A stretch of 64,000 nucleotides of DNA from Janibacter hoylei PVAS-1 (lineage in GTDB: Bacteria > Actinomycetota > Actinomycetes > Actinomycetales > Dermatophilaceae): NCBI RefSeq assembly GCF_000297495.1, contig NZ_ALWX01000022.1, positions 1-64,000 on the forward strand, given 5' to 3'. Below the pieces are notes generated by a model. The model saw only the letters and a program-made list of their open reading frames with translations. It was not told the DNA's origin and did not search any database. Both the position numbers and the translations under genes were made by a program. Below, piece after piece: positions 33,817 through 59,488 of this stretch. Position 1 is the stretch's first letter. Each line of letters opens with the position of its first letter.

Positions 33817-33840
33817 CCGCATTACCCTAGGGTGATGCGG
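33817..33840. repeat. 24-bp near-palindrome around CCCTAGGG
   Basis: CCGCATTACCCT and AGGGTGATGCGG form 12-bp arms with one mismatch, centred on CCCTAGGG, the same core as the ATTTCCCTAGGGAAAT repeats. It lies 2 bp after the MFS stop and 38 bp before the thioesterase ATG. It could be a terminator for one gene, an operator for the next, or both. Confidence 0.6.
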
Positions 33841-44570: not shown

Positions 44571-44633
44571 CCGGACCTGCGTATTTCCCTAGGGAAATCA
44601 CACCGGACCTGCGTATTTCCCTAGGGAAATACG
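44571..44633. repeat. Tandem 28-bp repeat containing the palindrome ATTTCCCTAGGGAAAT (2 copies)
   Basis: Identical 28-bp units at 44571-44598 and 44603-44630 each end in the perfect 16-bp palindrome ATTTCCCTAGGGAAAT. In the second copy the palindrome extends to 22 bp (44612-44633). They lie between the convergent ends of plsC and the ABC exporter. The AT-rich arms contrast with the surrounding GC content. Three more copies are at 57770-57848. Confidence 0.9.
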
Positions 44634-57598: not shown

Positions 57599-57648
57599 GC
57601 TCGTGATCCTTGCGAAGGGGGAGTGCCGGCCACCTCGACCGGCCAACA

Positions 57649-57667
57649 TTAGGAGACCCTAACCTAA
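57649..57667 (-). promoter_or_regulatory. DtxR/IdeR-type iron box
   Basis: TTAGGAGACCCTAACCTAA matches the 19-bp actinobacterial iron-box consensus (TTAGGTTAGSCTAACCTAA) at 16 positions by my alignment; the right half is perfect. It lies about 50 bp upstream of the siderophore-binding-protein ATG, overlapping the expected promoter. Iron-loaded DtxR/IdeR would repress the importer. Confidence 0.85.
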
Positions 57668-57769
57668 CTCTTGGGTGCCTCGCGCACAGGTTCGCCGTCT
57701 ACGCCCCGTCGTGCCGGTGGGCGCGGTGCCCGTCCCGGTCGAAGATCATGATGACCTCGGCCCCTCCGC

Positions 57770-57848
57770 ATTTCCCTAGGAAAATGCGCACTCCTTCCGT
57801 ATTTCCCTAGGGAAATCTCCACCCTTCCGGTGATTTCCCTAGGGAAAT
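57770..57848. repeat. Three copies of the ATTTCCCTAGGGAAAT palindrome
   Basis: Copies lie at 57770-57785 (one change, ATTTCCCTAGGAAAAT, flanked by GC on both sides), 57801-57816 and 57833-57848 (both perfect). Centre-to-centre spacing is 31 and 32 bp, about three helical turns and the same as the pair at 44583/44615. The flanks share CTTCCGT/CTTCCGG before the second and third copies. They fill the gap between the iron-uptake promoter and folC. Confidence 0.9.
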
Positions 57849-58025
57849 GCGCCAGCACGACCTCGTCCCAGCTGCCGCCGCGTCGAGACCGACGCCATCG
57901 CCGCGGCCCTCGCCGCCCGCGCGGGATGGACCGTCGACGTGCACGACCGGCGTGAGCGACCCGCCGGCGCCGTGTCGACCCACCACGTGCACGACGTCGT
58001 GCTGCGGGCACGGAGGGCCGGCTGA
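57849..58025 (+). pseudogene. Possible C-terminal remnant of a methyltransferase-like gene
   Basis: An open frame without a start codon runs from the last palindrome to a TGA 20 bp before folC. It encodes RRVETDAIAAALAARAGWTV followed by DVHDRRERPAG and HVHDVVLRARRAG. The HDVVLRA-type ending recalls SAM-dependent methyltransferases, but the match is weak. The in-frame TAG lies in the palindrome itself. It may be a gene tail left at a deletion junction. Otherwise 57668-58045 holds only the palindromes. Confidence 0.35.
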
Positions 58026-58045
58026 CGGGTGCGACAATCGGGGCC

Positions 58046-59488
58046 ATGAGCCCCGCCCCCGATGCCGCCCAGCGGCAGGCCGCCGCCGATCTCGAGCTGC
58101 GTGAGCGCATGCGCCGCGTCGAGGAGGGCATCCTCGAGCGCGCTCCCGAGCACGACCTCGAGCCGAGCCTCGACCGCATCCGCGCCGTGCTCGACCTGCT
58201 CGGCGAGCCGCAGCGCACCTTCCCCGTCATCCACGTCACCGGCACCAACGGCAAGACCTCGACCGCCCGGATCGTCGAGTCGGTGCTGCGGGAGTCGGGC
58301 CTGAAGACCGGGCGCTTCACCTCGCCGCACCTGCAGGACATCCGCGAGCGGATCACCATCGGCGGCGAGCTCATCACCCGCCGGGCCTTCCTCGACGCGT
58401 GGGCCGACATCGCCCCCTTCGTCGACGCGGTGGACACCCGCTCGGTCTCCGAGGGCGGGCCGCGGATGACCTACTTCGAGGTGCTCGTCGCGCTCGCCTA
58501 CACGGCCTTCGCCGACGCGCCGGTCGACGTCGCGATCGTCGAGGTCGGCATGGGGGGGTCCTGGGACGCGACCAACGTCGTCGAGGCCGACGTCGCCGTC
58601 ATCACGCCCGTCGGCATCGACCACCAGCACTTCCTCGGCGACACCATCGAGGAGATCGCGACCGAGAAGTCCGGGATCATCCACCCCGACGCCATCGCCG
58701 TCAGCGCGCCGCAGGTGCCCGAGGTCCTCGAGATCCTGCGTGCCCGCGCCGACGAGGTCGGCGCCCGTCTCGTCGTCGAGGGCGAGGACTTCGGTGTCCT
58801 CGAGCGCGACGTCGCCGTCGGCGGCCAGATGATCTCGCTGCGCGGGCTGGCCGGCGACCACCCCGACCTGCTGCTCAACCTCCACGGAGCCCACCAGGCG
58901 AGCAATGCCGCGCTCGCGGTCGCGGCCGTCGAGGCCTTCCTCGGGGGAGGGGAGCAGCCCCTCGGCGAGGAGGTCCTCGCCGCGGGCCTCGCCGCCGCCA
59001 CCTCGCCCGGGCGGCTCGAGATCGTGCGTCGCAGCCCGACCGTCGTCGTCGACGCCGCGCACAACCCACACGGGGCCGCGGTCCTCGCCGAGACGCTCAA
59101 GGACTCCTTCACCTTCACCCACCTCGTCGGTGTCGTCTCGATCTTCAAGGACAAGGACGTCGTCGGGATCCTCGAGGCGCTCGAGCCGGCCCTCGACGAG
59201 GTCGTCGTCACCCGCTCGACCTCCCCGCGGGCCATGCGGCCCGAGCGGCTCGGCGAGATCGCCGCGGAGGTCTTCGGCGACCACCGCGTCACCGTCGTCG
59301 ACGCCCTGCCCGATGCCCTCGACCACGCGGCCCAGCTGGCGGACGAAGGGGGAGTCGCCGGCGGTGTGGTCGCCACCGGATCCATCGTCACCGTGGGCGA
59401 GGTGCGTCTGCTCCTCGGCGTCACCGACGTCGAGCGGCCCGTCGCGCCGCCGGTCGAGGTGCCCGTCGAGGTCGAGGACGAGGACTGA
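58046..59488 (+). CDS. folC: Bifunctional folylpolyglutamate/dihydrofolate synthase
   Basis: FolC adds glutamate to folates and makes dihydrofolate from dihydropteroate. The 480-residue Mur-ligase-type protein has P-loop VIHVTGTNGKTSTARIVESV, FTSPHLQDIRERITIGGELI, ALAYTAFADAPVDVAIVEVG with GMGGSWDATN, HQHFLGDTIEEIATEKSGII and VVVDAAHNPHGAAVLAETLK. The start is ATG 58046. DUF4233 follows after 16 bp, the usual actinobacterial arrangement. Confidence 0.95.
   Translation: MSPAPDAAQRQAAADLELRERMRRVEEGILERAPEHDLEPSLDRIRAVLDLLGEPQRTFPVIHVTGTNGKTSTARIVESVLRESGLKTGRFTSPHLQDIRERITIGGELITRRAFLDAWADIAPFVDAVDTRSVSEGGPRMTYFEVLVALAYTAFADAPVDVAIVEVGMGGSWDATNVVEADVAVITPVGIDHQHFLGDTIEEIATEKSGIIHPDAIAVSAPQVPEVLEILRARADEVGARLVVEGEDFGVLERDVAVGGQMISLRGLAGDHPDLLLNLHGAHQASNAALAVAAVEAFLGGGEQPLGEEVLAAGLAAATSPGRLEIVRRSPTVVVDAAHNPHGAAVLAETLKDSFTFTHLVGVVSIFKDKDVVGILEALEPALDEVVVTRSTSPRAMRPERLGEIAAEVFGDHRVTVVDALPDALDHAAQLADEGGVAGGVVATGSIVTVGEVRLLLGVTDVERPVAPPVEVPVEVEDED

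Follow-up and report, generated by a model that had tools for sequence, protein, structure and literature searches.

Helically phased palindrome arrays at gene ends of Janibacter, spelled differently from species to species

Scattered through the genome of Janibacter hoylei PVAS-1 are short rows of a palindrome whose 14-bp core, TTTCCCTAGGGAAA, is this species' version of a family of dyads, GCAYNNCC-N4-GGNNRTGC, carried by a clade of Janibacter. Copies within a row stand mostly three or four helical turns apart, the rows gather close behind stop codons, and near relatives spell the same dyad in their own ways. Our explanation, which we put a little short of an even chance when taken whole, is that these are dispersed double-stranded sites for a putative dimeric protein that would line one face of the DNA and perhaps insulate the ends of genes.

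The repeat came from a single window, a 64,000-nucleotide stretch of the J. hoylei genome (G000; other G numbers denote the further genomes compared). Its first array is built on a 28-bp direct unit, CCGGACCTGCGTATTTCCCTAGGGAAAT, which occupies 44571–44598 on the plus strand and recurs, identical and offset by 32 bp, at 44603–44630. Inspection of the sequence places two unstranded dyads here, GTATTTCCCTAGGGAAATCA at 44581–44600 and, 32 bp further on, GTATTTCCCTAGGGAAATAC at 44613–44632. Each unit closes on a 16-bp palindrome (44583–44598 and 44615–44630), the second of which reaches 22 bp (44612–44633); the original prediction had described this tandem unit at 44571–44633 accurately, letters and coordinates alike. 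The three further copies it had placed at 57770–57848, about 32 bp apart, are there too. They start at 57770, 57801 and 57833 (offsets of 31 and 32 bp), within unstranded dyads at 57768–57787, 57799–57818 and 57831–57850, the first with one mismatch in its palindrome core. In all, the window holds four perfect copies of the palindrome, this one-mismatch copy (57770–57785) and a three-mismatch match at 33821, against a chance expectation of 0.01 copies (100 shuffles).

The genes on either side set the two arrays apart. A plus-strand acyltransferase gene (PF01553; 43796–44560) has its stop codon 20 bp ahead of the first dyad of array 1, and a minus-strand ABC transporter gene (PF00664 and PF00005; 44662–46524) converges from the other side to end 29 bp past the second. 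Array 2, on our reading of the open frames, lies between a minus-strand Peripla_BP_2 lipoprotein gene and a plus-strand Mur-ligase-type gene at 58046. These are divergent, so the location first described for the repeat, between convergent genes, fits array 1 only. Short reading-frame remnants, possibly a decayed gene, flank array 2 at 57664–58030, upstream of this Mur-ligase/folylpolyglutamate-type gene. Ahead of the lipoprotein gene, at 57640–57675, is a TTAGG..CCTAA-like sequence, which we take to resemble an iron-regulator box.

A genome-wide count, proposed from the outset as a check, returned 95 perfect copies of the core in G000 and none of a reversed-pattern control; with up to two mismatches the figures were 208 and 1. 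Among 149 genomes sampled from the family (Janibacter is placed in the Intrasporangiaceae), the exact core occurred in the window's own and in none of the 148 others; a few exact copies also occur in relatives such as G152 and G151. A scan for core pairs in contigs of 84,980 species, possibly without the window's genome, gave Candidatus Janibacter merdipullorum as its sole record, on a contig identical over 3,014 bp to G152:C53, of the same genus. Looser patterns reach further. GCATT-N10-AATGC is present in 12 of the 16 genus genomes (142 copies in G101, 116 in G151, 88 in G117, 58 in G132, 46 in G000, 25 in G153, 15 in G138, 6 in G152, 2 in G075 and 1 each in G149, G154 and G155; none in G144, G038, G126 and G150), with a reversed control of 0 in all. 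GCRYNNCC-TTAA-GGNNRYGC occurs 155 times in G138, 49 in G155, 4 in G152, 3 each in G151 and G153, 2 in G101 and once in G075, with 0 in the remaining nine of the 16 and in the control. By these strict patterns seven species hold 46–155 copies each. The carriers are the ten genomes with an acyltransferase identity of at least 88%; the six at 73–81% hold 0 or 1 copy of these patterns. Restriction of the copies to this one genome, a possibility raised at the start, is thus true of the exact letters (149 family genomes, a few relatives excepted) and untrue of the wider family under its other spellings.

We rejected an origin outside the genus: a scan of 396 genomes of the order, for the GCATT spelling only and with three Janibacter genomes included, found three non-Janibacter genomes with one match each, all with unlike centres. 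A viral or plasmid origin was likewise rejected. The core pair turned up on one AT-rich viral contig, where a roughly 50-bp direct repeat containing TTTCCCTAGGGAAA (L022:1900–2010) is unrelated by eye, and the degenerate dyad on 31 viral contigs, one site each and never in an array, which by eye is chance. One G138 array that we searched with had no match among plasmids or phages.

What varies between species is the lettering inside a common frame, GCA...CC-N4-GG...TGC. In the matches listed for each genome, the interior and centre read TTT and CTAG in G000, TTG with CTAC or GTAG in G151, and TTG with CAAC or GTTG in G153; G117 and G101 use TTG or TTC with CTAG or CTAT, G138 and G155 carry CGA and TCT in opposite halves of a TTAA-centred dyad, and G132 mixes TTT/CCGG and TTG types within the same arrays. 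Copies of the TTAA type survive as relics in G101, G151, G153, G152 and G075. The outer GCA and CC positions are 97–100% conserved in G138, where the interior is variable. The acyltransferases of G000, G151 and G153 are 98% identical, yet the array spellings of these three genomes differ at many places. Three species each spell their array differently at one place, which corresponds to the C15–C63 contig junction of G000, to L063 in G151 and to L236 in G138 (the last by eye). G151 also has a GGGG-rich dyad, GCATTCCCCCGGGGGAATGC, standing as a 45-bp direct repeat (L052:4814–4878) and unlike its other spellings.

The regularity that most suggests a protein is the spacing. We took 111 arrays of one to nine copies from G000, G151, G101, G117 and G138, counting distinct spacings once per array and accepting sites that scored at least 14/16 or lay within 70 bp of one that did (in G138, at most two mismatches per array). 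Of 119 distinct spacings, 112 fall within 1.6 bp of a multiple of 10.5 bp, where 34% would be expected for lengths of 20–109 bp. The classes are 30–33 bp (91 spacings), 40–45 bp (24) and 61–62 bp (2), with one spacing each of 20 and 36 bp; seven spacings are off phase, and the period is carried mainly by the 30–33 and 40–45 bp classes. G153, which had no part in our noticing the phase, has nine of nine spacings in phase. In G132 the figure is ten of 12 among the matches listed (46 and 86 bp are off), some of them seen before the phase was noticed. The three-turn spacing of the original prediction is correct, but spacings of four turns (41–42 bp) exist as well, mostly in related species.

Tandem duplication takes part, since the units of a given array are in many cases near-identical. 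Some likeness also extends between loci, whose spacers, even when trimmed, resemble one another more than shuffled letters do (0.52 vs 0.36 in G138, 0.43 vs 0.36 in the 42-bp class), and part of the constant spacing can therefore stem from descent of one unit. Shared descent leaves two things unexplained. One is the inverted pairs with long spacers in G151 and G117, set at 41–42 or 31–32 bp: those of G151 run CTAC..GTAG nine times and GTAG..CTAC never, and keep a constant spacing though they are not tandem duplicates. The other is the lack of spacings of 34–39 bp, except for one of 36.

The placement of the arrays was judged against genes called by a home-made codon-score script, some of whose calls are in the wrong frame, and without ten arrays that clashed with gene calls and two at sequence ends. 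The G000 stretches and 28 of the 40 from G138 had been chosen for holding sites; those from G101 and G117 were contiguous, as were 13 from G151, where seven more were chosen. Arrays occupy 49 of 284 convergent gaps, 41 of 778 tandem gaps and 9 of 343 divergent gaps (convergent versus divergent, P = 1.5e-10; tandem versus divergent, P = 0.06 only). Within tandem gaps, 33 of 45 arrays lie nearer the upstream stop, at a median of 14 bp from it and 61 bp from the next start. Among the 139 gene 3' ends that face an array, 61 are 1–15 bp away and 24 lie inside it; 19 place their stop codon exactly at a dyad, using the TAA or TAG of its centre, although several of these gene calls are doubtful. Orthologues back some of the stops within a dyad, among them those of an ABC ATPase gene that ends inside a site in both G151 (..TALP-stop) and G138 (..TARP-stop), and of genes whose tails are a few residues long in G101 (L099) and G138 (L229 and L244). 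Whether copies are always intergenic had been raised at the start; most are, but they are not always intergenic or convergent. Strict-pattern sites are missing from a 1.06-Mb arc of the G153 chromosome (G153:C1:1370394–2425778), which lies roughly opposite parB (P = 0.04, 16 random clusters). A chromosome-position rule was rejected because G138 carries arrays at the corresponding distance.

These features can be drawn together in one scheme. The unit would be the 20-bp dyad, read by a putative dimeric DNA-binding protein, and with sites three or four turns apart the bound dimers would share a face of the DNA and be able to touch. A dimer that recognises double-stranded DNA is favoured by the helical spacing, the outer dyad symmetry, the freely mixing half-sites and the inner pairing lost in G138. 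Arrays lengthen by tandem duplication of a 30–32-bp unit, as their near-identical units show, and would arise at new places, to be kept close behind stop codons and most often between convergent genes, where a row of bound dimers would stand in the way of RNA polymerase as a roadblock or insulator. It is the position of the arrays, behind stops and above all between convergent genes, that suggests such a boundary or roadblock role at gene ends. The spelling of the dyad would drift by species along with the assumed protein, older spellings being left behind as relics. Counted against a protein is that this analysis found none that binds the dyad; a look for regulators beside divergent arrays, covering four neighbour proteins in G138, gave no DNA-binding family.

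Also counted against the double-stranded-DNA reading is strong RNA folding, which an RNA role predicts as well. Folded as RNA, the window array reaches −49.8 kcal/mol (z −6.4), and arrays of five genomes fold better than their shuffles, with median z of −6.1, −9.0, −9.8 and −9.1 and, in G138, −4.8. Hairpins at transcript 3' ends, acting as terminators or as the 3'-end protectors proposed for REP elements, would account for this and for the arrays that lie directly behind stops; the two copies of an inverted pair can base-pair with each other in G151, G117 and G153, and one G101 site sits within a perfect hairpin with 23-bp arms (L104:11595–11645; −49.2 kcal/mol). We nevertheless regard RNA hairpins as an unlikely explanation. 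In G138, 97 of 112 copies lack all three inner stem pairs, three are perfect palindromes, and arrays run head to tail. Inner changes go uncompensated in G000 and G117 (pair 6–15 in G117 is GG five times, CC four, GC three and CG once), and neither the sites nor the flanks of G000 show compensatory changes. Steps of 10.5 bp have no RNA reason. Rfam covariance models run on the window, L234 and L052 matched two tRNAs only and nothing at the arrays.

Other signals were pursued and set aside. Outer-stem pairing showed no excess in G000. Further hairpins occur in 5 of 49 convergent gaps with an array and 70 of 203 without, but matching for free length removes the raw difference (8.4 expected, five seen), so there is no sign that arrays replace terminators, which counts against the boundary role. 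A Rho-type C-rich strand, looked for by eye and not counted, was inconsistent. Like intrinsic bidirectional terminators, the arrays are palindromic and lie by stop codons between convergent genes; unlike them, they carry the same core at scores of places, in phased copies that are mispaired in G138. One perfect G138 dyad, GCACGACCTTAAGGTCGTGC (L235:7608–7627), does lie between an A-run and a T-run as in a bidirectional intrinsic terminator. Hairpin-like stretches, CGAAGGGGG and CCCCCTTCG, recur beside arrays at G000, G138 and G151 loci and behind genes in the genus.

The arrays might instead be a purely selfish miniature element moved by a putative transposase, their phase reflecting its assembly on DNA and their 3'-end placement a tolerated insertion. 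Turnover between species speaks for it. Within 160 bp behind the acyltransferase gene, array 1 is absent from all 15 other species, seven of which have the same convergent neighbour (by eye), and this points to dispersal. Across 17 distinct locus comparisons, 12 showed nothing in the other species and two a TTAA-type remnant (by eye). Successive subfamilies with relics (the TTAA type, at 155 copies in G138, 49 in G155 and one to four in five others) and arrays that run into genes, supplying the stop codon at the dyad of 19 ends, are in keeping with such an element. In the remaining three, both species carry dyads at the corresponding place but spell them differently, so a selfish element would need repeated insertion or change in place. 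No target duplication was seen, at borders blurred by divergence, and the Y1 (HUH) domain of REP transposases (PF01797) was found in none of the 16 genus genomes and in five of 14 control genomes; the link to a transposase gene suggested at the start is, on that search for the Y1 domain, not supported for the REP type. We think a purely selfish element rather improbable. Contigs C15 and C63 of G000 both end inside one array, and the G151 orthologue (L063:11451–11544) shows them to be neighbours, so the arrays break short-read assemblies.

The closest described relatives share only part of this pattern. REP elements, as PMC3733652 describes them, are high-copy palindromic repeats of 20–40 bp whose families are specific to species; the copies often face opposite ways and lie mainly on the downstream side of genes, where reading frames are tandem or convergent. 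The Janibacter arrays are placed in the same way, downstream of genes in convergent and tandem gaps. They differ from REP/BIME of the GTAG and CGTC superfamilies in having no foot tag (neither GTAG nor CGTC appeared at the palindrome foot in flank counts of 61 G000, 39 G151, 11 G101 and 13 G117 sites, and GTAG is seen only in dyad centres), in genomes that lack the Y1/RAYT domain, in spacing by helical steps, and in that most G138 copies are unpaired inside. Among the defining REP/RAYT features checked, placement is shared, and the transposase gene and foot tag are lacking; on hairpin folding the strong predicted folds and the broken inner pairs of G138 point opposite ways. STAR elements of staphylococci, as PMC3532100 describes them, are interspersed intergenic direct repeats whose arrays grow and shrink at loci that differ by species; the Janibacter arrays are likewise interspersed intergenic repeats at species-specific loci, but, compared with that description, their unit is a dyad, helically phased, with a core spelled according to species. 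We found no published description of the repeat under the spellings searched or as a named repeat, and the original view that it is not a recognised element stands for the literature searched.

That the dyads organise the chromosome as centromere-like sites, in the manner of ParB/Noc, we consider very improbable. To our knowledge, tandem phased arrays and placement at stop codons are not ParB features. All 16 genomes have one strong ParB_N protein (PF02195) and no clade-wide second copy; weak extra matches in G038, G138, G151 and G155 do not correspond to array content, and canonical parS, GTTTCACGTGAAAC, already lies near parB in three copies each in G151 and G101. The likeness is in the letters: the dyads are dispersed 16-bp palindromes with a similar half-site, ATTTCCC, and ATTTCCC-TA-GGGAAAT differs by two central bases from the Noc consensus TATTTCCC-GGGAAATA as given in PMC7383237. 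The Janibacter sites depart from the exact Noc-binding site, TATTTCCCGGGAAATA, by two to four additional bases at the centre and, unlike Noc-binding sites or parS, form tandem arrays with no extra ParB/Noc protein.

We return, then, to phased sites for a dimeric protein. The original prediction had offered a protein-binding array or a replicating short repeat rather than chance. Chance is indeed the poorer explanation, and each option is partly right, with phase and dyad symmetry pointing to a protein and the absence of array 1 from all 15 other species to dispersal. The family is REP-like in placement and dispersal; its odd features are the helical phasing and the re-spelling from species to species. 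In its fullest form the idea is that a clade-specific Janibacter protein of fast-changing specificity lines gene 3' ends with phased rows, making transcription boundaries out of protein while all its sites in a genome are re-spelled in step, a possibility that we ourselves find doubtful. Close species with differing spellings offer a natural series in which to follow a repeat family, or the specificity of a DNA-binding protein, as it changes and rewrites a genome. Should transcription prove to be stopped or insulated by the arrays, bacteria would have a further kind of gene boundary, one made of protein.
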